NCBI GenBank assembly: GCA_021014325.1
Contig: CM037461.1
Coordinates: 11,499,501 to 11,563,500, forward strand
Source: Plazaster borealis
Taxonomy: Eukaryota > Echinodermata > Asteroidea > Forcipulatida > Labidiasteridae
Reading direction: 5' to 3'
DNA: 64,000 bases
The notes beneath the pieces are model-generated. The model ran no database searches and was not told where the DNA came from. It saw nothing but the letters and a program-made list of their open reading frames with translations. A program made the position numbers and the translations under genes. Shown in pieces: positions 20,036 to 63,731 of this stretch (position 1 is the first letter of the stretch; the number at the start of each line of letters is the position of its first letter).

Positions 20036-20178
20036 CTTTACTTTGGAGTGTTTCTACATACATGCAGCATTCTCATTAAAACAATTCTGTTTTTGGGGTC
20101 TGGATAGCGCAAAGGTAAATTTTCCCCAATCATACATCAATAAATGCATAATACTAACAGTTCAAGCAAGTTTAGAAT

Positions 20179-30460: not shown

Positions 30461-30625
30461 ATGGAGCTCTTTCATCTGCTTCTGATCGGTCTTTTCAGTG
30501 GGATTTGTACAGCCAACAATGAACTCCAGTGTACAGCACCACCTATATACATGCACTTAATAGAGGCTAAGCAGCAGCCATTTTACGCTACTCCGGTTCC
30601 AGGACACTCCTCTACAGCAACGTAA
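30461..30625 (+). CDS. Short frame with signal-peptide-like start, at the LINE 5' end
   Basis: A 54-codon frame begins MELFHLLLIGLFSGICTANN, a hydrophobic run typical of a secretory signal, and stops at 30623-30625. It overlaps the start of the next frame (open from 30571), which contains the 2A-like motif and has no ATG of its own before it. A single frameshift would join the two. Some metazoan LINEs are known to start with a signal-like stretch followed by a 2A peptide; whether this copy once did so is an inference. Confidence 0.4.
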   Translation: MELFHLLLIGLFSGICTANNELQCTAPPIYMHLIEAKQQPFYATPVPGHSSTAT

Positions 30626-33600: not shown

Positions 33601-33789
33601 GTTCTTCGATCATCGTCTACCGCCCACCTAGAATTCAACACTGGTCCTACCCCCCGCACTCGCTACGGAAAACGCGCCTTCTCAATTGCCACACCCACTC
33701 TCTGGAACAACCTTCCCGTCCACATCCGTGCCTCCACTACACTGGACTCATTTAAGACAGAACTCAAAACTCAAAACCCACTTATTTAG
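30571..33789 (+). pseudogene. LINE ORF2: endonuclease and reverse transcriptase with one nonsense codon
   Basis: One frame runs from 30571 to 33789, broken only by TAA at 32548-32550. The N-terminal part has an AP-type endonuclease: AITETWLTGD, MICGDFNFHVD, GHTLDLILTR and PSDHALVECRL. The reverse transcriptase follows: SNYRPIANISFLGKVLEKIV just before the stop, then QSAYRKFHSTETAL, VLLDYSSAFDTINH (catalytic Asp), SSGVPQGSVMGPLEF, VYADDTQLYV (catalytic YADD) and the C-terminal QRIQNSAARLVSR. Domain order and size match L2-type LINEs. In the grip region an LLF-type triplet appears as LEF, a likely extra defect. Otherwise the copy is well preserved. Confidence 0.9.
30652..30690 (+). other. 2A-like ribosome-skipping motif
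   Basis: In the LINE frame, LLVAGDINPNPGP ends in the invariant NPGP preceded by GDI. 2A peptides follow the pattern D(V/I)ExNPGP; here Glu is replaced by Asn. Skipping would separate the N-terminal leader from the endonuclease part just before the last Pro. Confidence 0.7.
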
Positions 33790-34051: not shown

Positions 34052-34345
34052 ATGTTCAAGGTGGAGGAAGACAGCATCAGGACTGTAAAAAAAACTTGGA
34101 AAGAAGGGCAGTTATTTGATATTGAGGTGAGTGAAACTTTAGTTTAGCCCTTGTTTTTATGTATTGGCAGTGGCATAACTAGTTACATGTTTGACGTGGA
34201 TATATATTTTTATTTTCAGGTTTTAGAAGAAGCAGATGGCAAGGTCTTTGTAACCTACCCAGGATGGAACTCTAGGTATAATGAATGGTTGCCCAAATCC
34301 CACTATTTGCAAAACTCACTATTTGAAGACACAATAAAGTTGTAG
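34052..34345 (+). CDS. Tudor-knot / chromo-barrel-like domain, two exons
   Basis: The exon ending at 34126 reads SIRTVKKTWKEGQLFDIE and meets a consensus donor (GAG|GTGAGTG). The next exon starts at 34220 after TTTTCAG and reads VLEEADGKVFVTYPGWNSRY, then NEWLPKSHYL, stopping at 34343-34345. The 93-bp intron keeps the frame. The pattern hydrophobic-V-x-Y-x-GWN-x-RY-x-EW-L matches Tudor-knot (chromo-barrel) domains of chromatin proteins such as the ARID4/MRG group, which bind methylated histone tails or nucleic acid. An ATG at 34052 is in frame, giving 66 residues, but the gene may start further upstream. The final exon is the seed of the tandem array that follows it. Confidence 0.6.
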
Positions 34346-34680
34346 CTATGCTCACAGAAATGTCTTACAATACTAGGACATCTCAATACCACTAACGAAA
34401 GACAAAATTAAGTTGTAGTTGAGCTTGTAATAATGTCTTACAATACTAGGACATCCCATTATTTGCATAACTCACTATTGGAAGACACCATGAAGTTGTA
34501 ACTGTGCCTGCACTAATGTCTTACAATACTAGGACATCTCAATACCACTAACGAAAGACAAAATTAAGTTGTGGTTGTGCTTGTAATAATGTCTTACAAT
34601 ACTAGGACATCCCACTATTTGCATAACTCACTATTGGAAGACACAATTAAGTAGTAACTGTGCTTTTAATAATGTCTTAT
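34290..34680. repeat. Higher-order tandem array (73 + 83 bp) growing out of the last exon
   Basis: TGTCTTACAATACTAGGACA starts at 34361, 34434, 34517 and 34590 and a worn copy at 34673, spacing 73, 83, 73, 83. The 83-bp type contains CACTATTTGCA-AACTCACTATT-GAAGACAC, which in the first copy is the coding end of the Tudor-knot exon, including its stop codon. The array is therefore B-A-B-A-B. Confidence 0.88.
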
Positions 34681-40292: not shown

Positions 40293-40297
40293 AATGT

Positions 40298-40459
40298 TGT
40301 AGTAACCTGACGTGGATTATTGTTATAGCGCCCTCTGTTGATTAGTTGTGTTTAGGACATGTGTTGTAGTTGATGGCATCCATCTTTGTTGCAGTTCATG
40401 ACAGTGTATTTAGTAAAGAGTTAGATAGGATCAGACTGTCAGTTATCCAAGTTATAACA
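40298..40459 (+). repeat. Gypsy-2 5' LTR (162 bp)
   Basis: It begins TGTAGTAACCTG and ends AAGTTATAACA. It matches 44317-44477. Confidence 0.95.
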
Positions 40460-40518
40460 TCTTGGCGACGAGGATGGGATCCTGCTAAACAGGGAGAACA
40501 TCCAGAAGGAATTTCAAT

Positions 40519-41291
40519 ATGAATACCTTTGGGCATATCGATGAATTTCAAGCTGAAAAGGACTCTGAAGCATGGCCTCTGTGTGTGGAACGATTGAAGC
40601 AGTTTTTTGAGGCAAACGATGTAAAGGATGCTGGTAAGCAGAGAGCTATTCTGTTAAGTGTTTGTGGTGCTGATACAAACAAACTGATATCAAGCCTTGT
40701 AGCACCAGCTAAGCCAGGAGATAAGAAATTTGATGAACTAATATTGATTGCTAAGGATCATTTCAATCCACTACCGTCAGTAATCGTTCAGCGATATAAG
40801 TTTAACACCCGCTTTCAGCAACAAGGAGAGACAACCGCAGAATTTGTTGCTGAATTACGCCGGCTCGCACAACACTGTGAGTATGGGGCTACACTAGAGG
40901 ACATTTTGCGTGATCGCTTAGTATGTGGCATAAGGACGAGCGTGTACAGCGAAGGCTGTTATCAGAGACTGCCCTTAAATTCAAGAAAGCGTGGGAAATT
41001 GCACAAGCCATGGAGCTAGCCATGAAGAATGCCAAAGACCTTCAAAGAAACCTGGAGTCTTTGCCCATGCCAGTAGTAGCTGGACATATGCAGCAAGCCA
41101 ACAAAGTCGCTAGTAGTACCATCACCAGGGGCCCTAGTCAGACAAGGACATACCCACACGCACAGCCCCACAAACAAGGTGCACATTTCACTAAATGTTA
41201 TCGTTGTGGACGCACTGATCACTCTGCAAATGAATGCAGGGTACGTTTGATATTTGTCATATCTGTCTCCATCATGAGTGAGACCATATGA
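40519..41291 (+). pseudogene. Gypsy-2 gag remnant
   Basis: The first frame (40519) starts MNTFGHIDEF and carries the gag body (YKFNTRFQQQGETTAEFVAE, LEDILRDRLVCGI), the same layout as Gypsy-1. A frameshift near 40935 moves the rest to another frame with ALKFKKAWEIAQAMELA and one zinc knuckle CYRCGRTDHSANEC. The frame then ends at 41289. The second knuckle and the N-terminal half of the protease, including the DTG active site, are missing or scrambled between 41240 and 41335. Confidence 0.85.
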
Positions 41292-41335
41292 TTCCGTATT
41301 TAAGCACCAGAAACCTATTTTCATGCAGAGAAACA

Positions 41336-44186
41336 CGTAGAGTTGCAAACTTATACAGGCCAGAAAATACCTATGGTTGGTAGTTGTTTAGTCACGGTAG
41401 AACACAATAGCCAGAAGACTCAACTTCCACTTCTCAATGTGTCTAGTCAAGACCAAATCTTCATGGGCGAGGTTGGCTGCGCCATCTAAAGTTAGCATGG
41501 CAAGAAATTCACCATGTTCAGGCATGCTTCTTCGACTGCTGAGATTATGAATCAATATGAGGAGTTATTTCGTGATGACCTAGGTGATTTAAATGGACAA
41601 ACTGTACAAATAAAGATCAAGTCAGATGCACAGCCCAAGTTCTGTAAGGCAAGAACTGTACCGTCCGCCATGAAAAAACAAGTGGAAGATGAACTCGATA
41701 GGCTCCAAAAAAGTGGAGTCATTGAACCAGTGACATTCTTGCATTGGGCAGCCCATTGTTCCAGTGTTGAAAGAAAATGGGAAAATCAAAATCTGTGGAC
41801 ATTACAAGGCCACAGTAAATCAGGCTGCAAATGTTGACTCATACCCTCTTCCTCGAGTGGAGGAATTGTTCGCAGAAATGTCTGGTGGTCGGACATTTAG
41901 CAAGCTAGATCTTAGTCACGCTTACTTGCAACTTGTGCTCGATGAAGCATCGCGTGAACTTGCAACAATCAATACGCACCGTGGCCTTTTCCAGTATACG
42001 AGAATGCCTTTTGGAATTTCAGCTGCACCCGCCATTTTTCAATGGACCATTGAAAGTTTGTTAGCTGACATTCCCCAAGCAGTGGCATTCCTTGATGATA
42101 TCCTTGTTACAGGAAATTCCGAAACAGAGCACATCGCTAATCTTGATCGGGTACTTACCCGACTACAAAGTGCAGGCCTTCGACTGAAGTGAGAGAAATG
42201 TAAGTTTTTTGCACCAGAGGTAGTTTACCTTGGACACCGCATAAAGGCAGCAGGCTTGCATCCCACAACAGAGAAAGTGCAAGCAATAAAGGATGCGCCA
42301 GTCCCCCGTAATGTCACCGAGTTAAAATCCTACCTGGGTATCCTCAACTTTTACGCCAAGTTTTGCCCAACTTGTCATCGCTCATAGCCCTGTTGCACCG
42401 TTTGTTGTGGAAAACCACCCATTGGTCATGGGACGCAGCCCAGGAGGAAGCCTTCCTCAAATCTCTGAACTGTTAGTGTCAGCTCAAGCTCTTGTGCACT
42501 ACAACCCAGAGAAGGAGTTAGTGCTATCATGTGATGCCAGTCCGTATGGTGTGGGCGCAGTACTAGCCAACCGGATGTCCAATGGAACAGAACATCCAAC
42601 TGCATACGCATCACGATCCCTGTCTCCGCCAGAGCATAATTACTCGCAACTAGACAAGGAAGGATTGGCAATGGTATTCGCAGTGAAAAAGTTTCACCAG
42701 TATGTATATGGTAGGAAGTTTGAGATATCTACCGATCATAAGCCATTGTTTGGTTTATTCAGTGAAGGGCGAATGATACCCCCCATGGCATCATCCAGGA
42801 TTCAGCGATGGGCACTTACACTTTCCGCTTACAATTATCGGTTGGTCTACAAGCCAGGGTCATTAAATGGTAATGCAGATGCGCTGAGCAGATTACCATT
42901 ACCCCACACGCCTTCGCATGTGCCAGTTCCAGCGGATTATGTCATGGTCATGGATCACATGGAGTCAACGCCAGTCAGCCCAGAGAAAATTAGTCTCTGG
43001 ACAGGCCGAGACCCAATGCTGTCACAAGTGCGGTCATTTGTGATGAATGGTTGGCCAGTACAATGTGCGAACACAGCAATGAAACCAAACATCTGTCATC
43101 AAAAAGAATTAAGCATCCAAGATGGCTGTATCATGTGGGGGTCACGTGTTGTTATTTCCCCACAAGGCCGGCAGCGTATTGTGGAGGAATTACATGAATC
43201 ACATCCTGGAGTCTCACATATGAAATCGTTGGGTCGCAGTTACATATGGTGGCCCTGCATGGACAAAGATCTTGAGAATAAAGTCAATCAGTGTTCCACA
43301 TGCCAAACCTCACAAAAATTGCCACCAGTCACACCACCTCACCCATGGGAGTGGCCCCGGCGTCCATGGTCACGCCTTCACATGGATTACGCAGGTCCAT
43401 TTATGGGCTGAATGTTTCTCGTAATTGTTGATGTGCATAACAAATGGCTGGATATACATGCTATGTATAGTGCAATGGCATCGGCTACAGTGGAAAAGCT
43501 GCGTCAGACCTTCGTGACACATGGATTGCCAGATATCATTGTCTCTGATAATGGCAGTAATTCCACCAGTGCAGAGTTTGAGGAGTTCTTGAGAAGGAAT
43601 GGCATTAAACATGTCCGGTCTGCCCCATTCCACCCATCATCCAACAGTTTGGCCGACCGTGCAGTTCAGTTATTCAAGGCAGCGATGAAACGTATGGATG
43701 ACGGGACTGTTGAGACAAAGTTATCGCAATTTAATGACATATCGCACCACGCCCCATGCTACGACAGGATTTTCCCCTGCTCAATTGTTGATGAATCGTC
43801 AACCGCAGACGGAACGCACAGAAGGAACATCATGATAAACATGCAAAACCTCGCTCGTTCAATGTGAACGACACTGTCTATGTGCATAACTATGCTCATG
43901 GCCCTAGATGGATGGCAGGGCATGTAATAGCGTTGTGTGGCCATCTTATGTACACAGTTCATCCGCACCCAGTATGGAGCCACATTGCCCCATTCCTTCA
44001 CCAGAGAGAGAGGAAATGGTTGGTGAACAACCGGCTGTACAGATTGAGATTGCCCCTTCAGTGGAAGAGCCAAGTGCAATGCCAGTGGAGCAGACTTGTT
44101 CAAAGAACACCGAACCAGACATTGAGCTTCGCAGATCTACACGCGTTTGTACCAAACCTAACCGCTACGGTTTTCCAGATCTGTGA
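41336..44186 (+). pseudogene. Gypsy-2 pol remnant (protease end, RT, RNase H, integrase)
   Basis: The C-terminal half of the protease is readable from about 41338 (VELQTYTGQKIPMVG). The RT spans two frames: ARTVPSAMKKQVEDEL, then INTHRGLFQYTRMPFGISAA and AVAFLDDILVTG (catalytic FLDD). A TGA at 42190-42192 and another shift near 42370 follow. RNase H (LSCDASPYGVGAVLA, STDHKPL) and the integrase zinc region (CSTCQTSQKL) are in a frame that stops at 43409-43411, in front of MFLVIVDVHNKWLDIH. The integrase core has Asp in VVDVHNKW and VSDNGSNS, but the catalytic Glu is Asp (NSLADRAVQ). The C-terminal ending is RSTRVCTKPNRYGFPDL. It cannot be active. Confidence 0.9.
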
Positions 44187-44316
44187 CTCTAAAAACACAG
44201 TTCTTCTTGTGTTTCCATGACGACAGTTGTTAATTTTGTATACTCAGTCTTTACAATGTTGTGTTGATATTAATCATGTTCCCTTAAAATTGTTGTATTA
44301 AGTGAGGGGGAGGAGT

Positions 44317-44477
44317 TGTAGTAACCTGATGTGGATTATTGTTATAGCGCCCTCTGTGGATTAGTTGTGTTTAGGACATGTGTTGTAGTTGATGGCATCC
44401 ATCTTTGTTGCAGTTCATAATGTGTATTTAGTAAAGAGTTAGATAGGATCAGACTGTCAGTTATCCAAGTTATAACA
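44317..44477 (+). repeat. Gypsy-2 3' LTR (161 bp)
   Basis: It matches the 5' LTR with about three substitutions and a 1-bp indel seen by eye. Confidence 0.95.
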
Positions 44478-44482
44478 AATGT

Positions 44483-45224
44483 GAACGTAATTTCCTGCAT
44501 TAGTGCAAAAAGACTGCCATTCAAATTTTGAACTAGAAATCTAAAAAATAGAAATCCGTTGCTTAAAAAAAAAAATCACCCTGCATGAAAAAAAAAATGC
44601 GTTGGATGGATAAAAATATCCCGCTGAAAGAAACATTGCTTATTGAAAAGAAATAAAGATTCTTAAAGTCTGGCTCCGCAGAAATTTTGACACGCACAAA
44701 AGCATTACACAGTCCAGACACAGACTGTTCTCCTCGTACAGCATACCTTCAACACTAGTCTGGCTCCGTAGTGTTTTTATGCTTTTTGGCGCGACGGGAA
44801 CCAGATGCTGTAAGAGTGCAAGTGAACTACACGCGATTGATAGGTGTTTGTTTGATGGCGTCCACTAGGAAATACATCGTTTATCGCAATCAAGGACAAG
44901 ACTTGACAAAAACAACTGATAAAGGCATGTATTAAGAATAATGAGAATCCCAATAAAAAGCATATAGAATGTCTCCAAAACATCCTGTCAACTGTTATCG
45001 AATTGGCTTTGCGTTTACCATTGTGCTTGTTGCAATTTTCCTATATTTTTTCGGCTGAAGAGTTGCACACCTGATATTCTCACACAAACTTACCGTCGGC
45101 CACCGGCACTGACACAGTCGAATGTGAAATATGGGTACAGAACAAAGTTGTTTAAGGGAGAAACAACGGAAGTGTATAAAGGACATGGCTAACGGGCGGA
45201 TTACTATTCCGCCCAGGCGGATTA
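44483..45224. other. No gene; short repeated phrase
   Basis: GTCTGGCTCCG-AG occurs near 44668 and 44757. No coding signature before the integrase-core exon. Confidence 0.5.
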
Positions 45225-46112
45225 GTGCTCAACAGACTTCAAACAGTGCACGGCATTCATATTCGTGCGAGTTCACCTGTCAATATGGATCGGCAGCTTA
45301 TGATAAAGTTATGCTTTCAGCTTGGTTTTACTCAGAAAGAGATGATTTTATGCCTAGCTTTGAATCATGGAATAGTTACCAGTGAAAGACATCTACGCCG
45401 GCTTTCAAAGAAGTATGGCTTTTACAGGTGGAAAGGACATTCAGACATGAGGATTGCAGCATTCATTGAGGACCAGTTACAGACATCTGGCCAATGTGAT
45501 GGCTACCGCTGGATGCACGTCAGATGCATAGAGGAGGGGTTTGTTTTATCACAAAACACCATTCATATGTTACAGCATTTGCTAGAGCCTGAAGGTGTTG
45601 CAGCAAGGAGGAGACATCATTTGAGATGTCGCACGTACATCAGCTCTGGCCCGAACTTAACATGGCACATGGACGGTTTAGAAAAGTTAAAACCATTTGG
45701 TATTGCTATCAACGGATGTATTGATGGCTATTCAAAGCATTTGATTTGGTTGGAAGCTTATACCACCAACAATGATTCTAAAGTTATACTGGGATATTAT
45801 TTGGCAATAGTTTGTTCTGGAAAGGGATGCCCACGCAGAGTCATGGCAGATATGGGTACCGAAAACGGCCATGTAGAGCAAGTGCAAACTTTTCTCAGAC
45901 GAAATCATGACGACAATATGGCTGGAGCTAAAAGTTTTCTTTATGGAAAAAGCATAACTAATCAAAGGATTGAGGCCTGGTGGAGCTTTCTCAAGAAACA
46001 ATGCTGACAATATTGGATAGATATCCTGCACACACTAAAAAAGGGTGGATTGTTCAGTGGGGATGAATTAGATAAAAGTTTGGTGCAGCTTTGTTTCATG
46101 AGACTAGTACAG
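45225..46112 (+). pseudogene. Integrase-core (rve-like) gene exon with one nonsense codon
   Basis: The frame reads MDRQLMIKLCFQLGFTQKEM and HGIVTSERHLRRLSKKYGFYR, a helical N-terminal domain, then an integrase-like core: first Asp in LTWHMDGLEKLKPFG (near 45672), second in RVMADMGTENG (near 45849) and Glu in NQRIEAWWSFL (near 45972). The D-59-D-41-E spacing fits an RNase H-fold integrase. This is a family of integrase-core proteins found in many copies in fish and invertebrates and often spliced. A TGA at 46005-46007 replaces an expected Trp codon, yet the frame stays open beyond it to a strong donor CAG|GTAAGA at 46112, so the exon seems to have been intact until recently. The start codon is uncertain; an ATG at about 45285 (MDRQ) is the best candidate. 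Its cellular role is unknown. Confidence 0.72.
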
Positions 46113-47134: not shown

Positions 47135-49339
47135 GGCACCTTGTCAAAACTATCCCCGGGAAAACACAGGGACATTCTAACCCGGGGACGTTTTTCCTCC
47201 CGCTCCAATTAGTTTAGCTTTCCAATTCACAACGGGACTATTCCGGGACACTTCACTGACAGCTGATCTGTATGTTTACATTCTTTAAGATTAGACCTAA
47301 GCACTGAGATCGTTATCTACTGGAAGCCTGGTTTGCGGTTACCACTGAGCGAGGTCACCTGTTTGTGGTTTTCTCAACCAGATAAAGCCAACACTGGGGT
47401 ATGGACTGGGATCTACAATATATACGTGTTTTATGCAGTTATCATTTAGCACTTTGATAAATTCTGTTTGACATCATGAAAACAATCTTCTCAAAATAAT
47501 GTTAAAGAACTATATGCGTGATGAAAACACTTAATTATTTTGCAGAGTTGTTTTGTTTTGTACTTTTGTGATATTGATTGTTACGTTGGAAAACTTAACT
47601 AACTTGGAGTTTAACTTTGAGTTTTATTTGCAGCGTTTTTTGTTTTTTTAATCCATAAAGGTAGACACTTCGGACACATTTCACATTTCTAACCTTTTAA
47701 CCAAACAAATTTCCACATAAGTCTCACACATAGACTGAAAAACACAATACAAATTACAGTTTTTATAATGTATTACCTCTTCTTTATTTTACCTCACAGT
47801 ACTTCAAACATGGTTACATTATTTCTGATGCACTGTACCTTTTTATATTTATTGTGTACTTGATTTTACTGTGGTGTTCTTTACACATTTATTTGGAAAA
47901 GTCGGCCACCCCTAAAAATGAACGCAACCTCTCCATCCCCCACCCGCCAGTGATTTAGCCGCCCTACCAATCATTTAACAATCTTGAATGAAAGCAACTT
48001 CGAACCTGATAACCACGAATTTAATAACAACAATGAGCATTTAAAGGCTCTGCTGCTTTCCGTTTTAGTTTTCGTTTGAAGAGTTTTTGAGCAAGATGAA
48101 CAATTGAAATGGATAATATACCTTGCCTTGCCCTCTCATAAATTCATCGCCCCTTTATAGCAACAAAAACAACTTCACCTTTCCAACTGAAAATATTTAT
48201 TCATAAATACCCCAGACAGTTTCGCTATTCCTATTGGTGGAGAGCACGTCACGTGGGGGTGTTTAAACGGATGATAATGCACGGCCAAGAGTGTTTATAA
48301 CCGGCTGGGCTTCGCGTATTGGACGCGCAAGCTCCGCCAATTTACTTACGCGGAACGCAATGCATGGCTATAGTTCCCGCGCGTAGCCTAATCTTTTTGT
48401 ATACGCGCGTACACACAACCCAACGCGCACAAAAAAGAATTTTACAAAAGTTTTTGAAAATGTACAAACTTCGATGTCAGAGATTGTCTTTTTACCACCG
48501 ATTTTCCTTATTCTTTCACTTTTTAACAAAAAGGCATTTATGAATGGGAATAAATGAGTAGTGTCTAGTTCTTAAACGGCCGTTTAAAACCATGCAGGTC
48601 GTGGCCGCGATAAAGGCCCTCGCCTTCGGCTCGGGCCTTTATCGCACGGCCATGACCCTGCCGGTTTTAAATGGCCATTTAAGAACTCGTCGCCACTCTT
48701 TTATTCCCTTATTTACTGTCGCTGTTTAAATAAAATAAATGGAGATGCATTTTCATTCTCCTAACATATAATTGAGTGATGGGTTTAAACATAATACATT
48801 GTAGTTTAAACAAAACCTGTGTGTGTTATTTTTTTTTTTTCATGAGTGAATGTGTCTACTGTTTATATATGTAGGTTTTCCATGCAGTCTTCTTCCATGT
48901 ATTTTTTCCAAGAAGGGTAAAAAAAACCTTCACGTGGGTAATAATTGTGCCACGATAATCATGATCGGGTTTGTTCACAATAAGGGATCAATTGTAATAC
49001 AAGTTATTTAAACACCATCCTACCATTCCAAAATAAGCAGCACAGATGGATGGATGTTTGGAACATAATTATATTGTGTTGGCAAAGGTTAATTATAAAT
49101 TGCGGTTGATAGATTTCAAGCTCTGTGTTGCTGAAAAGCCCTGGAGGGTGTGAGATCTTATCAGGGCCAAACCACAGAGAGCTCAGCAGGGGAGTATAAA
49201 CAAACTCAGGGAGAGTGTGGTCCAGCACCGGGAGAGAGCCGACCGGGAGAGAAACTAAATAACAATTCATCCCGACCAGAAAACCACGACCGGGACAGAT
49301 ATCCCTGAATATTCCCGGGGATAGTTTTGACAAGGTGCC
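47135..49339. mobile_element. Harbinger-like non-autonomous element
   Basis: Terminal inverted repeats of 28 bp, starting GGCACCTTGTCAAAACTATC, at 47135 and (inverted) ending at 49339, flanked by TAA on both sides (47132-47134 and 49340-49342). A TAA/TTA 3-bp duplication is typical of PIF/Harbinger. The 2.2-kb body has no transposase. It includes a palindromic element at 48546-48708. A worn relative lies at 7748. Confidence 0.85.
48546..48708. repeat. 163-bp palindrome with TTCG tip (MITE-like)
   Basis: The outer arms GGGAATAAA ... TTTATTCCC and the inner arms CTTAAA-CGGCC ... GGCC-TTTAAG enclose GCGATAAAGGCCCTCGCC / GGCTCGGGCCTTTATCGC. The centre is TTCG at about 48625-48628. Stem mismatches are few. 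Confidence 0.92.
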
Positions 49340-50404: not shown

Positions 50405-50935
50405 CATGACGGTTTAAAGACGTCATTTTATGGTTGTTATCTAGTCGCTTGGACTTGAGCGGTCGTTACCAAAAAACTTTAAGAAGTGTTTCTTCATATT
50501 TCGGAACTCAGTCTCTCACTTCAAAATAACACCCTCAAAATGACGTCTTTATGACGTCGTTTAAAGGTCGTTATCTAGTCGTCTGTATAACTTGTGGTCA
50601 TGGTCAAAAAACGACATCTTCAAGACGTCTTTCTTCCAACACAAAAATCATCTCCACCTGCCAAAAAACAAGAAACACGACTTATTAACAACCTTTTAAT
50701 TTGGTCGTTATCTAGTCGTAAATGTACTACTGGAGGTGGTGGTAAAAAAAAAAGACCTTTTCAAGACATCTTTCTTCCCATCCAAAACTCATTTCCACCC
50801 ACCCCCAAAACAACAAAAACACGACGTCTTTTTACGGTCGTTATCTAGTCGTATGTACTACTGGAGGCGGTGGTAAAAAACAACCGACCTTTTCAAGACG
50901 TCTTTCCATCCAAAACTAATTTAGTTTTTGTTTAT
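50405..50935. repeat. Tandem repeat, period about 134 bp
   Basis: GGTCGTTATCTAGTCG starts at 50432 (GGTTG variant), 50566, 50703 and 50836, spacing 134, 137 and 133. Between these, GACGTCTTT and TTTCTTCC-ATCCAAAA recur. The copies are diverged. Confidence 0.8.
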
Positions 50936-51229: not shown

Positions 51230-51646
51230 ATTATGGTCCAATTACACTGCTTGAAAACTGTATGGTAAGCCATTCGAAAACAAACGGCTTGGCTGATGCA
51301 CAGAGTACACCAAGATTAAAGAGTTGAGTGTGGTTATTTCTTCATGGTTGTGGCTGTGATCAGAATGAGTATCATCAGTTTTCCTGCAGCTAGTCAAGTC
51401 CAAGTTGGTCAAAGAACAATAGTTTGGTTACAGCATGGAGGTAGCATGGAGGTTACAGTACACTGGATTAAAAATAAGTTTCACTTCTTCCATGAATGAT
51501 CTGCATGATGAAAAAGTTGGCACTCTGATTTGTTAGTGAACAAAAAGAACACAACGTAAGCATTGCCAGATGTGCATTCTGATGACCGCATGGCTTTACT
51601 CACTGGTCAGTACAGGTGCACAGACATTATTTCGGACAATCGTACT

Positions 51647-52240
51647 TGTTAAGAAATTACAGCGAAAGTGCGCCACCACGCGGCAAGAAAAGCTGCTCTC
51701 ACCTGCTCGCCATCAAGGCTAAAATCGGATGGTGAGTTTCTCTAATTTAACGTAAACTTTTTGATTAATATAATTGTGTTACGATAAAACCTGGTCTATA
51801 ATTGTTTCTTATAAATGCTAAAGATTCTTAATCATTCAAATTCAGTGCATTACTGTTTTGTAATTATCGTGAATTTGCAGCCAAATCCGGTGATGTTTCT
51901 TTAGGTGTCGGAAATACATCCCTTTCCATATATGCACAAACCCTAAGGGAAATTTATTACGTTGCATTCCAATTAGTATGTCAATAGCCTTGTTAGTAGT
52001 AATCTTGTATGATTGATTCCTAATCCCTAAGTCTTTTCTTTGGTTTGTTTTGCAGACTAAATTACTAAATACACAACACCCTACCGAGTAATCCAATTAG
52101 CCTGAATATCACAAACCTACACGTTTAATACTGTTCCTGATTTCCTATTACCGATTGTGGTGAACTGATTACTGTGGTGAATAAACTGATTGAACTGAGA
52201 ATTATATCTGATAAATGCTGACTCCAGTGCTTATTTTTCA
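51647..52240 (+). repeat. Bel/Pao 5' LTR (594 bp)
   Basis: It starts TGTTAAGAAATTACAGCG and ends CTTATTTTTCA. By eye it differs from the 3' LTR at about 18 sites. Its antisense strand has an 84-codon open frame (52096 to 51842), also open in the other two LTR copies. Confidence 0.95.
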
Positions 52241-52267
52241 TGGTGACCCAGACGTGATACCAATAAC

Positions 52268-54200
52268 ATGGATGACCACGTACCCCCTCCAAGCCTCGCG
52301 AGCCAGCATTCAAAGAATTCAACTAAATCAATATTAAGCCGTCATTCCAAGAAATCAACCCAATCTGTATTGAGCCAACAAAGTAGCCTAAGTGTCAGTT
52401 TACTATCCGTGAGAGCCCGGATCCAAGTAGCTGCCAGAGAAAAGGAGCTAGCTGCCACCCGTAGGAAAGCAGAGATAGAAGAAAATGCTCGAGCCGAGAG
52501 AGAGAAGATAGAGCATGAGCTTTTGGCAGCACAAAGGACCCGTGAAGAATTTTGCCCTACACCAGAAAAGGTTGTACCTTCAGCGACAAAGAGAACAAGA
52601 GGATGAAGAATTGGCATTGGAACGTGCTCGTATGGATGCCGATCAGGAGGAACAACGGATTCTGACGAGAAAACGAGATTTCTCCAGCCAATTAGAACTT
52701 GAGAAACAAGGACAGAACTGAGACTTGCTCAAGCCAGAATTGAGTCTGCCATCCTCACTGAGACTGAGAACAATGATTTGCATTTTAATGATAGTGGCTC
52801 TTTAACAAATATTAGTGTTTCTTTGAACCCCACCACCGGGGTAAATTCCAATGACTACACTACCGTGAAGTCACCTTCCGATAAGCCGTATGAGCCGAGC
52901 ATGCGCTTTGTGCCTGCGCATTGCGTTTCCGCTGCACCTGTGCGCACGCTTGCCGCCAGCACGCCTGCTGTAAGCTTTGCGCCCTCTCAAACCATAACCG
53001 TTAAATCTGCTTTTTCCACAGCACAGCCCAGTGTCACATACGCAGTTGATGACACACCCCGTCTGTGGTCTGCCACCCCACACCTAGCATCCAAAGCCAC
53101 ACCCAGTACCGGCCCGACGCCAATTCCTGCTGCCGTTTCCTGCTACCCTAGCAATTCAGCTCCCTTGGCATACCCGGTGATTACTTAGACACACCCCATT
53201 GGACAACCTCCGTCTACTGCAGCTGCAGAGCACCCAGTTGTTCCATCCGTGTCAGATTCCGGCATAATTAATCAAATGATGCTCAGCTCCATGTTGGTGG
53301 CAACTGCAGGTGGACTGAACATGGAAGTCCCTCACTTCAGCGGAGGTGATCCGTCAGAATACCGGTGCTTTGAGACGATGGTTGATAGCTGTATAAGACC
53401 ACTAGTCCACCTTAGTGAAATTCAGAAATATTTCATTCTTAAGTCCAAACTGAGTGGTCAACCAAGTAAGGATATTAAAGGCCTCGAGCACGATGCACAG
53501 TCCTTTACCAAGGCTATGGCTGTGCTGAAGAAGTTGTATGGTGACATCGGAATCCTCATCAGAACCAAAATTGAAGAGATCACATCATGGCCGAAACTAA
53601 GAGCCCATGACTCCAAGGGGTTCGTTGAATTTGCATCAACGGTCTCAGCATTAGTAACTCAACTCCAGAGTGCTCCAGAGGGACAGGCAGAGTTAAAGGC
53701 TAACTCAACTGCTTGTATTCTGTATAGCAGACTTTCCCCTACTCACCAGACCACATTCTTGAGATGTATGCAGAAAAAAGATGTGACAAATTTCTCCCTC
53801 AAAGACATCAACAAATGGTTACAAGAAACGTCAGAAATATCTCGCAAAAAGATGCAATTGGAAGATAACATACCAACTGAGTCTCAGATGACCAACCGAG
53901 CCAAGCGAGGAAAAGGTGCAGTCGCATTCTATTCCAAAACCAGAACGAGCAGCGTTCAGTCCAGTACTGCTCTCTCATCAAAACCAGAAAAAAGCGATGC
54001 CCCCAAACACCGACAGCAAGACAGGAAGTTCATCCGGAAATGCCCTTATTGCGATGGGAACACTGGTTATCCTGGTGCTTTAATTTCAAGAAGCTTTCAC
54101 TTCCTGAGAGGTTGAGGTGGATTAAAGAAGGTCGTCGTTGTTGGAAATGTGCCCGTAAGCACAAAGAAGGTCAGGAGTGTGATCTGTGCAAGCCGTGCAG
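52268..54200 (+). pseudogene. Bel/Pao gag remnant
   Basis: It starts MDDHVPPPSLASQHSKNS, a serine-rich then highly charged coiled-coil region (AAREKELAATRRKAEIEENA). Frameshifts near 52530 and 52715 and a TAG at 53186-53188 break it. From 53249 the frame carries VPHFSGGDPSEYRCFETMVD and LSGQPSKDIKGLEHD, the DUF1759-like gag domain of Bel/Pao elements, then KFIRKCPYC. A shift near 54060 leads into the zinc-binding block RRCWKCARKHKEGQECD and CKPCRECDQTHLTILH. Gag would form the particle shell; this copy is broken. Confidence 0.85.
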
Positions 54201-57200
54201 AGAGTGCGACCAAACCCATCTGACCATCCTTCATGATCTTATTGTCCAGCCGGGGTATGGGGTCTATTATTCACGATTCGATCCCAACCTTTCCGTTTTC
54301 TATGGAGATGGCAACCCTTGGCTCCTCTGTGATGTTTGCATGAAAATTCTACCAGTCACCCTGCATAGTAAAGGTGCTAAGTTGGAAACCTACTGTTTAC
54401 TGGATGATGCATCCAATTTCACTATGATCCTCGATGAGGCTGCTGAGTCATTGGGACTCGATGGTCAGGATACTGTGTTGCCTATTGCTACTGCCAGAGA
54501 AGAATGTACACACTGCAAAGGCAAGATTGTCAAGCTTGATGTTTCACCGGCCGACGAACCAAGACATCGTATAAGTATCTCTGGTGTATTTTCATCCAAA
54601 ATGCTCAGACTGTCTGAACATTCTATTCCCGCACAGGCCTTGCGCCAGAGATGGGCTCATCTAAAGGATGTTCCCCTGCATGAGTGTAAAGAAGTACGAC
54701 CCCTTCTACTGATAGGCAGTGATCATCCTGAGCTGGTGGTTCCATTGGAGAGCCGCTTTGGTTCAGAAGGCACTCCAGTGGCAGTGCGAACTGAACTTGG
54801 ATGGGCGGTGCAAGGCCCCACCATGAATCACCGACATCGTGGTGAACTTAACTACATGTCGAGACCAACACCTTCTGATGCAACTTTACACGAAGGTGTC
54901 TGTAAGTTATGGCATCATGACTTCAAAATGTATGCTGAGAGGAAGCAAGTCACCCGGTCAAAGCAAGACCAACGTGCCATAGATCTCCTTGAAACCAAGT
55001 CCACTTATGTAGAAGTGGATGGTGCCCGCAGAGTGGCAACTCCACTCCTCTGGAGGCAGGATGATGAAAACCTCAGAAGTCCAGTAAGCTCTGTGATTCC
55101 CACTCTCCTTCGAAATGAGCAACGCCTTAAACGAGATCCGGAGCTTGCAAAGGTTCACTGTACTAAAATACAAGAACTGAAGGATCCAGGACTAGTTCGT
55201 ACGGTTTCTGACCAGGAGAAAGCGAATGATGCCAGGCGTCAGTGGTATATCCCTCATCATATTGTCAAACAATGACAAATGTCGACTTGTGTTTAATTGA
55301 GCCTTCAAGTACTGTGGCCACTCCCTGAATGATCGACTCCTACCTGGTCCCATACTTGGTTCATCCCTGATAGGTGTACTGTTGCGGTTTCGGCAACATC
55401 TTGTGGCTGTCTCAGGAGACATTAAGGCAATGTTTCACTGTGTCTATACCTTGGAGAGAGATCGCTGCATGCTGAGGTTCTTATGGAGGGCACTTCGCAC
55501 AGAAGACCAACCGGAGGAGCTCGAGTGGAACGTACTTCCATTTGGTACAACATGTAGCCCCTGCTGCGCTTCGTTCGCTTTACAAAAGCATGCCAAAGAG
55601 AATGTTGAAGACCCTGATGTACTACGAAGCGTCACAAGTGCATTTTATGTAGACAATTGTCTAGATGAAAAACAAATGTGCAAGAAGCAAAGGAACTAGT
55701 GCAAAAGCTGTGCAAATCCCTCGGAGAAGGAGGATTCCCTATCGTCAAATGGGCGAGTCACAAGCCTGAGGTCGTAGCAGATCTTCCAACTACAGCTAGA
55801 TCTGAAAGTACTGAGAGATGGCTTAATCTCAATTACACTTCACCAGAAGAGGCTGCCTTGGGCCCCAGATGGAATTTTGGATCCGACTCCTTTACGTACC
55901 AGTTGAAGCTCCATGACTGGCCTGTTCTCACCAGGAGATCTGTGCTAAGTGACGTAATGAGATGTGCAGGGAAGGACCCCTTGGGCTTCCTGATGCCCTT
56001 TATGGTGAGAGGCAAGATGCTGCTTCAGGAGCTGTGGAAGAGACCTTGGGGGTGGGACGATCCAATTCCGGACGAGGGTGAGGCGGGCATGAGTGCTCAG
56101 CATATGAGATGGCGAGCCGAAATTGCTGACCTTCCTCATGTTAGTTTTCCCCGCTGCTACCTGCCTGAACACTTCAACCCTGATGGAGTGACATACCAGC
56201 TCCACGTTTTTACAGATGCCTCGGAAAGAGCATATGGGGCAGTTGCCTACCTCCGATCCACTGCTACCAATGGTGAAGTGTCTGTGCGCTTTGTGATGTC
56301 CCGATCCCATCTTGCCCCAAAGCACGTTCAGACAATGCCACGGTTAGAACTCCTTGCAGCTGTCAGTGGAGCTGAACTAGCAGAACTGTTAGAGAGTGAA
56401 ATGAAGATGACGCTTTCAATCATCTGCTGGGGTGACAATACCACCGTCCTCACTTGGATCAAGTCGGAGTCTTGCCGCTACAACCGTTTTGTTGGTGCAC
56501 GTATCTCTGAAATTCAACGGCTAACAGATCATGCCACATGGCGGTATATTAATTCTGAACGAAATCCAGCTGATGACCTCACTCGTGGTCTGGAACTCAG
56601 ACTACTTGTCGAGACTAGCAGATGGCATGCTCCGCCCTTCCTTTATTACGGTGAAGACAGGTGGCCTGAGTGGCCAGCCCAACACGACCCGGAAGAAGCC
56701 AAGTCTGTGTTGAAACAACAGGGTGCAGTCACTCAAGTGGCTAAGAACAGTTGTCCGGAGATAGATGCTACCAAATACACCACATGGGATGAGCTTGTGG
56801 AGGCATCAGTTGCACCCCACTTCGGTGAAACCTGGGAGCGGGAGATCCGATCAGTGAAGAATGCCTTGTACGCCATCCTGGGGAAGCAGACGGTCACCCC
56901 TACTGTACTGTATACCATGCTTGTTGAGTTTGAAGGCCTTATGAATTTGAAACCCCTGGGTTACGTGTCATCAGATGTCTCTGATCCTGATCCAATCACC
57001 CCCTTTATGCTACTCATGGGGCGGCGAGACCATGCTCCCCCACAAGTTGTCTACCCTGGGGAGGACATTCTAAGCAGAAAGCGTTGGAGACAATGCCAAG
57101 TCCTGATGCAGAGATTTTGGAAAGAGTTTGTTCAATCCTACCTACCGGCTATGCAGGCACGCCAAAAGTGGCGAGGTGAGACTACAAACCTTTCGGTTGG

Positions 57201-57420
57201 TGATGTCGTCCTGATGATTGATCCCCAGCAAGTCAGAGCCCGTTGGCCAGTTAAAGTTATTGAGGTGCTTCCTGGTGAAGATGGACGAGTACGTGCTGTC
57301 AAGGTGCAGACCGACGACCGGGTACTCACTCGACCTGTGGCCCGTTTGATCAAGCTGCCAGTGGTACCAGACGAGGATGAACACACTGAAGTACCCATGA
57401 ATGATGATATCAAGAAGTAG
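54201..57420 (+). pseudogene. Bel/Pao pol remnant: protease, RT, RNase H, integrase with internal loss
   Basis: The protease has YCLLDDASNFTMI as its active-site region and TELGWAVQG downstream. RT follows (RRQWYIPHHIVKQ). A stop at 55273 and another shift precede VSGDIKAMFHCV (first catalytic Asp) and FYVDNCLDE; YVDN in place of YVDD occurs in relatives of this group. A shift near 55690 leads to the last frame: GGFPIVKWASHKP, RNase H with VFTDASERAYGAVAYL and CWGDNTTVLTWI, and the domain with WRYINSERNPADD. At about 56810 the frame jumps from TTWDELVEAS to APHFGETWEREIR, so the integrase zinc region and the first two catalytic acids are deleted in frame. The C-terminal part (SVGDVVLMIDPQQVRARWPV) is intact. 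Confidence 0.9.
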
Positions 57421-57616
57421 ACCCTTATGCATCTGCAGATCTTTCCTGCAGTAAAGCTCCAGTGTTACACCCTTAAAGGGGGCGGCCATTTTGTTTGAAA
57501 GTTGTTCCTGTTGTATTTGCAATTTATTCAAATTAACCTCATGATCAAAGTTTTGATTCACAATTTACTAATCCCCTTGTTATTTTGTAAACTATTGCGC
57601 ATAGTTTAGGGGCGGC

Positions 57617-58210
57617 TTTTAAGAAATTGCAGCGAGAGTGCGCCACCGCACGGCGAGAAAAGCTGCTCTCACCTGCTCGCCATCAAGGCTAAAATCGGAT
57701 GGTGAGTTTCTCTAATTTAACGTAAACTTTTTGATTAATATAATTGTATTACGATAAAACCTGGTCTATAATTGTTTCTTATAAATGCTAAAGATTCTTA
57801 ATCATTCAAATTCAGTGCATTACTGTTTTGTAATTATCGTGAATTTGCAGCCACAACCGGTGATGATTCTTTAGGTGTCGGAAATACATCCCTTTCCATA
57901 TATGCACAAACCCTAAGGGAAATTTTTTACGTTGCATTCCAATTAGTATGTCAATAGCCTTTTTAGTAGTAATCTTGTATGATTGATTCCTAATCCCTAT
58001 GTCGTTTCTTTGGTTTGTTTTGCAGACTAAATTACTAAATACACAACACCCTACAGAGTGATCCAATTAGCCTGAATATCACAAACCTACACGTTTAATA
58101 CTGTTCCTGATTTCCTATTACCGATTGTGGTGAACTGATTACTGTGGTGATTAAACTGATTGAACTGAGAATTATATCGGATAAATGCTGACTCCAGTGC
58201 TTATTTTTCA
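57617..58210 (+). repeat. Bel/Pao 3' LTR (594 bp)
   Basis: It starts TTTTAAGAAATTGCAGCG (second base mutated from the usual TG) and ends CTTATTTTTCA. It belongs to the left arm of the inverted duplication. Confidence 0.95.
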
Positions 58211-59348
58211 GTACTATTACTGGAAGTCATTCTATAGTTGGACAATTCCCAATTAGGGCACTGGGTTGCTCAGCTCACAATTATATGACTCCCGATGATA
58301 GTCGGACGAAGTGTAGTCTTCCGGTTTTGATTCGCTAGATTGTCTTACAATATTAAGGCATCGCTATATTTGAAGAAACATACCATTGTGCGACGTACAC
58401 ATTCGTTGATATGCTCGCTACTCTATCCGACAGTTTTGAGATCTCCCTGCGATTGCGTGAATCGTACAGTGCGACGACTCATCGTAAATAAAATGAAACA
58501 TCCGGGGTGGTTGGCCACGTCCACACGTGCGAACGTATCGTGTTGTGGCGGTAACTAGGCAATATTTTCGTCCGTAACTCTTGAGTCCCGTCTGCACGTT
58601 TGAGAAGCTTCGTGAGATATTTATTTCATGCTGCTGATCAGTTTTTGAATAGAATCACAGTGATGCGAACCTTAAACAACTTCTATACTGACCATGAGTG
58701 ACAGGTGACAATACCAAAGACTGAAGGTAAAGATGTACATGTATCTGTCATTGTCTGTGTTATGACTACGAGTACCTTATGACTCATGCATCTATGTAGG
58801 GCCTATACACACATCAGTGATGCGACAAGCAAGCTCAGGCCTGTAATCGTGGTAATGTAGGTGGGGTAAGATGCACAGTCTCAAGAGCAAGCTTATTTAA
58901 TGGCCATGCTGTCTAAATGTATTATTTTCCCAATACAAATCCTTACAAGTTGGTCCGTTAATTATCTGAACAGGAAAGCTCATCTTCCGTCACTGTCTCT
59001 GATTTGATGCAGACTATTTACTTACGAAAATCAAAAATCGAAGTGCACACTAGAGTAGGCTTATTGGTGATAATGATTTTATGAAGTTCAGACTACAGTC
59101 GGACAAATTTGGGCTCCTGCTCTAATTCAGAACATTGCAATACAATAGTAGGATATTACTGTATTCAAAGAAACATACCATCGTGTGAAAAGGTTGGTCC
59201 GTTAAGAGCAGTAACTACTTTGTTTTACAATTGTGAGATATCCCGTGAATCCTATATACAGTGCGAGGTAAGATTCATGTGACTTGCGAGGCAGACAATG
59301 GACATAAAGTTCATACCAAATCTCTCTCATCTAATTCTTTGCCTAAAG

Positions 59349-59732
59349 ATGCCGCCAAAACGCAAAGGCCAAGCCAACCCCCACAACAGTGCGTCATTAA
59401 ACATGTCAACTGGAGATAGTTTTATCAAAAGATGTGAAAATAATGAAAAGAGATCACACAACAACATTATTAGAGAAAGGAATAATAGAACGGGATAGGG
59501 TATATATTTGTGAATCTTGCCTAGACAACGTTTTCCCCAGCCACCAATACGGCAGCAGGAAAAGGGCTAAACTTCGAGGGACTGAACCTACAGGGACTGA
59601 ACCTGCATGGACCGAAGCTACAACCTCTACTCCCATAGTTCATGATCTTCAAACCGCCATTCAGAGAGATACCATTGAGCTGCTTAAAGAAGGACGACCG
59701 AGTTTAGACTAGCCCACCTTGTTGAGGTGTAA
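59349..59732 (+). pseudogene. Truncated relative of the DUF6589-like gene (left arm)
   Basis: It begins MPPKRKGQANPHNSASLNMS. A frame change near 59425 is needed to continue into LSKDVKIMKRDHTTTLLEKG, IIERDRVYICESCLDNVFPS and HQYGSRKRAK, then a TEPTGTEPAW-type linker and LLKEGRPSLD. These align with the first 150 or so residues of the gene at 35763-39073, including the YxCxxCLD block and GRPSLD. After a small indel a few more matching codons (HLVE) are readable; then the homology ends, close to the end of the palindrome arm. The core domain is absent, so it is a fragment. Confidence 0.65.
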
Positions 59733-59778
59733 TGGCTCTCTTTTAACACCGGTCTTTAACACTCACCATTACAGCCAT

Positions 59779-60389
59779 TTATTCATAAATTACTAAATTA
59801 TAATTTTACCTTGTTTAAATCAATAAATTACTACAATATACTAGCCGAACATTCATTGGGTCTAACAGCTAATGTATATACATACCGTGTTATTGTGCAG
59901 CGCCTGTTGTGAATCGTCCTCTAGAAAAAGCACACAGGATCCCGGGGATAATAACAATACCACGTTACGTGTAAAACTGACATGCATATTCATCACGGTG
60001 AGCGTCATGAGGCACAGCGCGACGTCATCTTATGCATATTCATGATGTCATACACACGCACGCGCACGCACGGACAGATCAGCCGGGCCCCCTGACTTTC
60101 TCACGACCAGCAGGCAGTGAATCATAAGTAAGATGGCGGCCCCGTTGCGGGACGAACCTCAATGTAATTTTTGTACACAATTTTTTTTGGCCATTTTCAA
60201 ATCATCACATCTGGACAAAGGCATCATTTGGTGAGCCCTGGAATATGTCACAAATATTGTAAGGATGTAAGGAACAAAGTGAGGTAGGTTGGAGTAGTAT
60301 GTGATGTTTATAAGTGGGAGAAATTTGCGATCAAACAGGTACGACTTGCTCGTACTTAAGAACTACGCGTTTAAGACATGTATGGATGG
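59779..60389. other. Unique spacer of the inverted duplication
   Basis: The 611 bp between the arms has no coding frame of note. It includes an AT-rich start, a CACGCACGCGCACGCACG stretch near 60055 and an AAGATGGCGGC box near 60131. Confidence 0.75.
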
Positions 60390-60435
60390 TGGGCTGTAAT
60401 GGTGAGTGTTAAAGACCGATGTTAAAAGAGAGCCA

Positions 60436-60819
60436 TTACAGCTCAACAAGGTGGGCTAGTCTAAACTCGGTCGTCCTTCTTTAAGCAGCTCAATGGTATC
60501 TCTCTGAATGGCGGTTTGAAGATCATGAACTATGGGAGTAGAGGTTGTAGCTTCGGTCCATGCAGGTTCAGTCCCTGTAGGTTCAGTCCCTCGAAGTTTA
60601 GCCCTTTTCCTGCTGCCGTATTGGTGGCTGGGGAAAACGTTGTCTAGGCAAGATTCACAAATATATACCCTATCCCGTTCTATTATTCCTTTCTCTAATA
60701 ATGTTGTTGTGTGATCTCTTTTCATTATTTTCACATCTTTTGATAAAACTATCTCCAGTTGACATGTTTAATGACGCACTGTTGTGGGGGTTGGCTTGGC
60801 CTTTGCGTTTTGGCGGCAT
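60436..60819 (-). pseudogene. Truncated relative of the DUF6589-like gene (right arm)
   Basis: Mirror image of the left-arm fragment. The predicted peptides (MPPKRKGQANPHNSASLNMS and the frame with VYICESCLDNVFPS) are identical in both arms as far as I compared them. It points towards the spacer, as does its partner. Same frame change, same truncation. Confidence 0.65.
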
Positions 60820-61956
60820 CTTTAGACAAAGAATTAGATGAGAGAGATTTGGTATGAACTTTATGTCCATTGTCTGCCTCGCAAGTCACATGAATCTTAC
60901 CTCGCACTGTATATAGGATTCACGGGATATCTCACAATTGTAAAACAAAGTAGTTACTGCTCTTAACGGACCAACCTTTTCACACGATGGTATGTTTCTT
61001 TGAATACAGTAATATCCTACTATTGTATTGCAATGTTCTGAATTAGAGCAGGAGCCCAAATTTGTCCGACTGTAGTCTGAACTTCATAAAATCATTATCA
61101 CCAATAAGCCTACTCTAGTGTGCACTTCGATTTTTGATTTTCGTAAGTAAATAGTCTGCATCAAATCAGAGACAGTGACGGAAGATGAGCTTTCCTGTTC
61201 AGATAATTAACGGACCAACTTGTAAGGATTTGTATTGGGAAAATAATACATTTAGACAGCATGGCCATTAAATAAGCTTGCTCTTGAGACTGTGCATCTT
61301 ACCCCACCTACATTACCACGATTACAGGCCTGAGCTTGCTTGTCGCATCACTGATGTGTGTATAGGCCCTACATAGATGCATGAGTCATAAGGTACTCGT
61401 AGTCATAACACAGACAATGACAGATACATGTACATCTTTACCTTCAGTCTTTGGTGTTGTCACCTGTCACTCATGGTCAGTATAGAAGTTGTTTAAGGCT
61501 CGCATCACTGTGATTCTATTCAAAAACTGATCAGCAGCATGAAATAAATATCTCACGAAGCTTCTCAAACGTGCAGACGGGACTCAAGAGTTACGGACGA
61601 AAATATTGCCTAGTTACCGCCACAACACGATACGTTCGCACGTGTGGCATGGCCAACCACCCCGGATGTTTCATTTTATTTACGATGAGTCGTCGCACTG
61701 TACGATTCACGCAATCGCAGGGAGATCTCAAAACTGTCGGATAGAGTAGCGAGCATATCAACGAATGTGTACGTCGCACAATGGTATGTTTCTTCAAATA
61801 TAGCGATGCCTTAATATTGTAAGACAATCTAGCGAATCAAAACCGGAAGACTACACTTCGTCCGACTATCATCGGGAGTCTTATAATTGTGAGCTGAGCA
61901 ACCCAGTGCCCTAATTGGGAATTGTCCAACTATAGAATGACTTCCAGTAATAGTAC

Positions 61957-62550
61957 TGAAAAATAAGCACTGGAGTCAGCATTTATCCGATATAATTCTC
62001 AGTTCAATCAGTTTAATCACCACAGTAATCAGTTCACCACAATCGGTAATAGGAAATCAGGAACAGTATTAAACGTGTAGGTTTGTGATATTCAGGCTAA
62101 TTGGATCACTCTGTAGGGTGTTGTGTATTTAGTAATTTAGTCTGCAAAACAAACCAAAGAAACGACATAGGGATTAGGAATCAATCATACAAGATTACTA
62201 CTAAAAAGGCTATTGACATACTAATTGGAATGCAACGTCAAAAATTTCCCTTAGGGTTTGTGCATATATGGAAAGGGATGTATTTCCGACACCTAAAGAA
62301 TCATCACCGGTTTTGGCTGCAAATTCACGATAATTACAAAACAGTAATGCACTGAATTTGAATGATTAAGAATCTTTAGCATTTATAAGAAACAATTATA
62401 GACCAGGTTTTATCGTAATACAATTATATTAATCAAAAAGTTTACGTTAAATTAGAGAAACTCACCATCCGATTTTAGCCTTGATGGCGAGCAGGTGAGA
62501 GCAGCTTTTCTTGCCGCGTGGTGGCGCACTTTCGCTGCAATTTCTTAACA
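61957..62550 (-). repeat. Solo Bel/Pao LTR (594 bp)
   Basis: A single LTR in reverse orientation, flanked by AGTAC on both sides (61952-61956 and 62551-62555), the reverse complement of the GTACT around the full element. It lies in the right arm at the mirror position of the full element. It carries 5'-LTR variants at its start and 3'-LTR variants over the rest. Its antisense strand, read here on the plus strand at 62101-62355, is open for 84 codons. Confidence 0.95.
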
Positions 62551-62974
62551 AGTACGATTGTCCGAAATAATGTCTGTGCGCCTGTACTGACCAGTGAGTA
62601 AAGCCATGCGGTCATCAGAATGCACATCTGGCAATGCTTACGTTGTGTTCTTTTTGTTCACTAACAAATCAGAGTGCCAACTTTTTCATCATGCAGATCA
62701 TTCATGGAAGAAGTGAAACTTATTTTTAATCCAGTGTACTGTAACCTCCATGCTACCTCCATGCTGTAACCAAACTATTGTTCTTTGACCAACTTGGACT
62801 TGACTAGCTGCAGGAAAACTGATGATACTCATTCTGATCACAGCCACAACCATGAAGAAATAACCACACTCAACTCTTTAATCTTGGTGTACTCTGTGCA
62901 TCAGCCAAGCCGTTTGTTTTCGAATGGCTTACCATACAGTTTTCAAGCAGTGTAATTGGACCATAATTATGGAG

Positions 62975-63510
62975 GACCAAAAGTGGACAACCCATTTTTC
63001 CAAAAATCTGGTGGAGTAAAAACAGAATTTATGTCCAAATACAGTCCCTTTTCAAAATTTTCATTTTCTGCTATCAGAAATTTGGATTTTTACATTTCAT
63101 CATACACCGGCGGTCTGAAAGTGAACAACGCAAATTTCAAAATTTCTACTAGCAGAAAATTGGAATGAACATTTCGGACCAAGCCAAATTTCAAAATTTC
63201 TAATAGCAGAAAATTGGAAAGAACATTTCGGACCAAACCAAATTTCCAAATTTTTACTAGCAGAAAATTGGATCAAACGTTTCAGAACAAACCAAATTTC
63301 AAAATTTCTTCTAACAGAAAATTGGTACGAACATTTCAGACCAAACCAAAATTCCAATTTTCTACTAGCAGAAAATTGGAATGAACGTTTCGGTCCAAAC
63401 CAAAATTCAAAATTTCTACTAGCAGAAAATTGGATCAAACATTTCAGACCAAACCAAATATCCAAATTTCTACTAGCAGAAAATTGGAATGAACGTTTCG
63501 GACCAAACAA
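62975..63510. repeat. 54-bp minisatellite
   Basis: AGCAGAAAATTGGA (with AACAGA in one copy) starts at 63151, 63205, 63259, 63313, 63367, 63421 and 63475, exactly 54 bp apart. One or two worn copies precede it (from about 63000). As 54 is a multiple of three, the minus strand stays open across it (63558 to 63100) as an 18-residue repeat (SASRNFEIWFGPKCSFQF type). Confidence 0.92.
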
Positions 63511-63731
63511 AAGCAGACTTCTGTCGGCACAAGAGAGAAGGTATTTCTTTGATGACATTCCGACTTTTGCTGGCTACCAATTATTACGAGCGCGCATCCG
63601 GAGCTCGCATCCGGGGAAAGGAAACGAGTGTCGAAGTTCATTGACACGGTCAGATACAGGTCCAAAAGCACAGGTTTTTAGTTTTGCAAGTGCACGGAAG
63701 AAGCAAACTGTGTAAAAACTCTTGGGCGAAA

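Follow-up and report, generated by a model that had tools for sequence, protein, structure and literature searches.

In humans, the proviruses HERV-K, HERV-H and HERV-W are dimorphic, such that one insertion site carries either the full provirus or a solo long terminal repeat (LTR) left by LTR-LTR recombination; this recombination is possible long after insertion (PMC6298018). A comparable pair of states is present in a 64,000-nucleotide stretch of the genome of the sea star Plazaster borealis (GenBank assembly GCA_021014325.1, contig CM037461.1, positions 11,499,501 to 11,563,500, forward strand), which is referred to here as the window; unlike the human dimorphism (PMC6298018), the two states lie in cis on inverted copies and not on alleles, and the element is a Bel/Pao retrotransposon. 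The locus is best read, with a probability of roughly 0.6, as a real, young, interstitial inverted segmental duplication of which the right copy would have lost the interior of the element.

Inverted duplications with a spacer are described from several animals. Human fold-back duplications consist, like the present locus, of inverted copies around a short single-copy (disomic) spacer, which was found at 21 of 21 sequenced junctions with lengths of 766-70,466 bp (median 3,428 bp; 615 bp here) and is ascribed to fold-back of a broken end (PMC3907307). These human cases are large duplications beside terminal deletions, translocations or rings (PMC3907307), whereas the copy described here measures 2.6-8.5 kb and has unique sequence on both sides. 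Similar spaced inverted repeats are found at the 2Rj breakpoint of Anopheles gambiae, with 5.3-kb arms over 99% identical, a 4-kb spacer and remnants of transposable elements (PMC1952172), and at the distal breakpoint of the Drosophila subobscura inversion O7, with highly identical arms of ~1.1 kb and a spacer of 250-407 nt, the orientation of which varies between lines (PMC7584159). The 2Rj and O7 repeats sit at chromosomal inversion breakpoints, whereas none is known at the present locus. Staggered breaks, unequal exchange and trans joining of homologues are discussed for Drosophila inversions (PMC7584159); by analogy, routes of the human fold-back, Drosophila or An. gambiae type could each give the structure seen in the sea star. 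Among the open-licence papers listed in literature searches, a scope that leaves preprints and most subscription papers outside, no title or abstract opening described an inverted duplication that has a full element in one arm and a solo LTR in the other.

The features of the locus, with the target site duplication abbreviated as TSD, are as follows.

51230..59776, plus strand: left arm of the inverted repeat; its 8,547 bp include the whole element, and counting that element as a single LTR reduces the length to 2,577 bp
51642..51646, plus strand: TSD GTACT, left of the full-length element
51647..52240, plus strand: 5' LTR, TG...CA, 594 bp
52241..57616, plus strand: Bel/Pao interior with DUF1759, a reverse transcriptase fragment, Peptidase_A17 (Pao) and DUF5641
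57617..58210, plus strand: 3' LTR, starting TT and not TG, 594 bp
58211..58215, plus strand: TSD GTACT, right of the full-length element
59777..60391, no strand: spacer, 615 bp, single-copy
60392..62967, minus strand: right arm, 2,576 bp, inverted with respect to the left arm
61952..61956, minus strand: TSD (AGTAC on the plus strand)
61957..62550, minus strand: solo LTR, mosaic, 594 bp
62551..62555, minus strand: TSD (AGTAC on the plus strand)

Comparison of the window with itself returns two inverted matches, 57616-59776 against 62552-60392 (99.3% over 2,162 columns) and 51230-52240 against 62967-61957 (98.6% over 1,011 columns), both at a BLAST E of 0.0 and therefore not due to chance. Without the LTRs, the arm flanks (417 + 1,566 bp = 1,983 bp) differ by eight substitutions, at 51617, 58286, 58518, 58669, 58712, 59342, 59727 and 59749, and by one 1-bp gap at 58520; the divergence is 8/1,983 = 0.40% (95% Poisson interval 0.17-0.79%), a count that leaves out the spacer rows from 59777 on (nine substitutions) and a one-base gap at 51649 caused by unequal slice lengths. 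An inverted segmental duplication is defined as two inverted copies of at least 1 kb with at least 90% identity (definition quoted in PMC1952172); the right arm has 2,576 bp and the flanks are 99.6% identical. The spacer has no match anywhere else in the window at E 1e-8, and none at E 0.05 when compared with the bases that precede the palindrome or with the outer flank on the right; within it the only exact inverted matches of at least 11 bp are two 12-bp self-palindromes, and complementary spacer ends would count as arm. An earlier reading of the same DNA from its letters alone (the sequence-only reading) had placed an inverted duplication at 51230..62967, with near-identical arms of about 2.58 kb that share an LTR insertion site and a 5-bp duplication, around a unique spacer of 611 bp; apart from the length of the spacer, which measures 615 bp, this description holds. 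The insertion site is the same in both arms, and the same TSD (GTACT on the left, AGTAC on the right) stands on either side of the insertion; in the right arm one LTR is left between the original TSDs and the interior is gone.

Evidence on the origin of the solo LTR comes from a column-by-column comparison of the three LTRs (594 columns, no gaps), in which the 5' and 3' LTRs differ at 18 sites, the 5' and solo LTRs at 13, and the 3' and solo LTRs at 7. The solo LTR resembles the 5' LTR at 6 of the 18 informative sites (2, 20, 32, 34, 39 and 238) and the 3' LTR at the remaining 12 (13, 132, 240, 250, 310, 346, 384, 388, 439, 444, 535 and 563), including 10/10 from LTR position 240 on; it has a private difference at site 312. 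A solo LTR formed by homologous LTR recombination must begin 5'-LTR-like and end 3'-LTR-like, and this order, with the 5' end from the 5' LTR and the 3' end from the 3' LTR, is seen here, apart from two sites, and is a mark of LTR-LTR recombination. A single 5'-to-3' switch fits 16 of the 18 sites, whether it is placed at LTR position 39-131 (with sites 13 and 238 misfitting) or at 238-239 (with sites 13 and 132 misfitting); by exact permutation, 153 of 18,564 label orderings fit one such switch equally well (p = 0.008). With free rates the log-likelihood is -94.5 with a crossover, against -101.5 without one if the solo LTR is sister of the 3' LTR and -105.1 if it is sister of the 5' LTR; when the rate after the split is set to 0.002 for each branch, the values are -94.5 against -104.4 or -116.5, so that one crossover beats the better model without it by 7.0 or 9.9, respectively. 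Judged by these sites, the comparison shows the solo LTR to be a recombinant between the two LTRs of a copy of the left element, formed after those LTRs had diverged. The sequence-only reading had left two possibilities for the solo LTR, a later event or the other allele; the recombination itself is borne out by the mosaic, which is compatible with an event in the right arm or in an allele, since both pass through the same LTR-LTR recombination.

The earlier proposal that insertion preceded the split of the arms is supported, since site and TSD are the same and the LTRs differ at 18/594 sites, against 8/1,983 in the arm flanks; barring gene conversion between the arms, the age of the insertion is several times that of their separation. 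The pre-split divergence of the LTRs is put at 16/594 = 2.7% (1.5-4.4%), or 2.4% by the model estimate; some of the 16 fitting LTR sites may be post-split changes. The events can be arranged in four steps. The Bel/Pao element inserted with a 5-bp duplication, as its anatomy shows, and its two LTRs diverged by ~2.4-2.7%; the decay of the coding region, which is seen in the left copy, would belong to this period. The surrounding segment would then have been copied inverted beside itself, leaving the 615-bp single-copy spacer, most likely through break repair with fold-back or template switching and in either direction of copying. Finally, the right copy would have lost one LTR and the interior through homologous recombination between its two LTRs; the solo LTR may have formed after the inverted copying, during it, or earlier on the homologous chromosome, each of which is compatible with the mosaic.

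The same locus could also be an assembly join, in which a haplotype with the full element and a haplotype of the same locus with the solo LTR were set head to head by the assembler. A divergence of 0.40% would be that of ordinary heterozygosity, which would suit a join of this kind. It is moreover known that alleles of one site can differ in being full or solo (PMC6298018). A plain haplotype join predicts homology that continues outwards beyond both arms and spacer halves that match each other, whereas visible homology stops at 51230, at 59776/60392 and at 62967, such that a join would require non-homology at three places. Sensitive searches (word 7, E 0.05) with the 1,033 bp between the right arm and the end of the window found nothing similar in the 10 kb next to the left arm, and the spacer halves do not match each other; against all 51,229 left bases the same 1,033 bp return two weak matches of 48 and 51 bp (75% and 71%) at 40.2 kb, in direct orientation, and both stem from the 54-bp minisatellite of the right outer flank. 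This evidence is indirect, in that an insertion allele immediately beyond the right arm could produce the same kind of edge on that side. A join is weakened because homology ends at both outer edges and the spacer halves differ, and it is considered unlikely; the sequence-only reading had left a choice between a young palindrome and an assembly join, and it is a real inverted duplication that the sequence favours. A fold-back artefact of a single molecule was rejected, as the arms differ by eight flank substitutions and by 5,970 bp missing from one of them.

An origin in one event would predict the same mosaic and the same divergence; copying may have slipped from the 3' LTR to the 5' LTR by template switching, or homologous chromosomes with full and solo alleles may have been joined in trans, a form of repair between homologous chromosomes that was put forward to explain a Drosophila inversion (PMC7584159). 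Such an origin presupposes slippage across 5,970 bp or else an ancestor that was heterozygous, whereas later LTR recombination is simpler, and no sequence feature found at the locus favours a single event, which is regarded as rather doubtful. If the trans version were true, a single chromosome would preserve the two allelic states next to each other. Foldback elements are similar in having long inverted arms that enclose a spacer, and the whole palindrome, or each arm, could be a transposon of the foldback type or with long inverted ends that moved as a unit. Compared by eye over 20 bp, the outer flanks show no TSD, and the outer ends of the arms are unlike the inner ones. In the inner arm flank the longest stop-to-stop open reading frame (ORF) has 103 codons; neither arm's copy of it matches Pfam at E 0.01, and a search among proteins of 0.55-1.75 times its length found no homologue of the left copy; a transposon is, on these grounds, very improbable. 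The outer arm flank had no match to plasmids in one search.

Several points weigh against the preferred reading of a young inverted duplication with later loss of the interior. Two of the 18 informative sites break the single-switch pattern; these may reflect post-split changes in the LTRs of the left arm, of which ~1.2 are expected per LTR by our arithmetic. The permutation test takes sites as independent, was devised after the pattern had been seen and has its direction set by the mechanism, and the likelihood model chooses its switch point freely. Gene conversion between the arms could give an older duplication a young look, and the evidence base is the sequence of this one assembly's window.

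The element in the left arm is a Bel/Pao retrotransposon of 6,564 bp with a broken coding region; the sequence-only reading was right about a length near 6.5 kb and not about wholeness, as the left copy is full in length yet not intact. Self-comparison delimits the direct LTR pair as 51645-52240 / 57616-58210. The interior is in stop-to-stop pieces in two alternating frames (52247-52606, 52703-53188, 53189-54115, 53881-55275, 55301-55699 and 55669-57420), with an in-frame stop between 52703-53188 and 53189-54115. When the six pieces were scanned separately against Pfam at E 0.01, matches were found in three: DUF1759 (2e-13) in 53189-54115, a reverse transcriptase fragment in 55301-55699, and Peptidase_A17 (3.5e-38) with DUF5641 (2.2e-24) in 55669-57420. 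The reverse transcriptase fragment scores under the Pfam cut-off (25.6 against 29.6 bits) and its frame is broken; the pieces starting at 52247, 52703 and 53881 have no match, and no integrase core was matched among the six pieces of the broken frame. Peptidase_A17, DUF1759 and DUF5641 are Pao-type coding domains, the latter two being presumably markers of the Bel/Pao family. LTRs of this family have TG...CA ends and a TSD of 4-6 bp; those found here have 594 bp and the 5-bp TSD GTACT, though the 3' LTR starts with TT. Directly after the 5' LTR the interior opens with TGGTGACCC, a primer-site-like stretch which we take to recall the 3' end of tRNA-Trp, and a short G-rich stretch that is not a clean polypurine tract lies ahead of the 3' LTR. 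The piece with Peptidase_A17 and DUF5641 has 92 relatives at E 0.001 (scored among the 7,995 candidates that share the most words with it), the nearest having 67-77% identity over 31-49% of the query; by identity the top named relative is the sea star Patiria miniata (72% over 23%; 55% over 66%), while by E-value fishes lead, with the crinoid Anneissia and molluscs also among the relatives.

The right outer edge of the inverted repeat sits in a perfect 12-bp palindrome, CCATAATTATGG (62961-62972), which the left edge lacks. Tandem arrays lie near both outer edges, one at 50566-50906 with a 141-bp period (~320 bp from the left edge) and one at 63069-63566 with a 54-bp period (100-160 bp from the right edge). 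In the inner arm flank, stretches of 48-66 bp at 58323-58388 are 71-75% like a tandem array at 34297-34679; because of this resemblance the arm may contain what is left of a dispersed repeat. Two more matches of this flank, weak and shorter, are at 35.9 and 7.1 kb.

Other mobile elements are present in the window. A piggyBac element on the minus strand (19298-22938) has TTAA at 19298 and 22935, ends inverted at 15 of 16 bases and transposase pieces at 20182-20919 and 20876-21910; it is flanked by ORFs for PNMA/gag-protease (22930-24192) and a Ty3-like pol (16344-19349), as a nested insertion. Among the matches listed for a piggyBac piece, with a cut at E 1e-60, the sea urchin Lytechinus pictus provides the best named relative (50% over 80%); a ribbon worm and a limpet come next. 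An element that is Ty3-like by domain order (40296-44477) has reverse transcriptase, RNase H and integrase pieces between direct repeats (40296-40459 and 44315-44477, 97% identical), and another ORF with an integrase core is at 45180-46004. A pair of ORFs like those of long interspersed nuclear elements (30571-33786) encodes an endonuclease domain and then a reverse transcriptase, in a region of strong negative GC (guanine-cytosine) skew; an imperfect palindrome of 163 bp at 48546-48708, 80% identical to its own reverse complement, is like a miniature inverted-repeat transposable element. Rfam at gathering scores and ARAGORN gave no match in the window.

The locus looks like a well-preserved example of known processes and not a new kind of element; the new results are the evidence for a mosaic, the sequence in which the events took place and the corrected edges. 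Users of this genome may find copy number, haplotype purging and read mapping unreliable at the locus. If the one-event origin were true, it would tie the formation of solo LTRs to repair synthesis. As read here, insertion, inverted duplication and LTR-LTR recombination would be largely orderable from sequence alone, with a mapped crossover interval.

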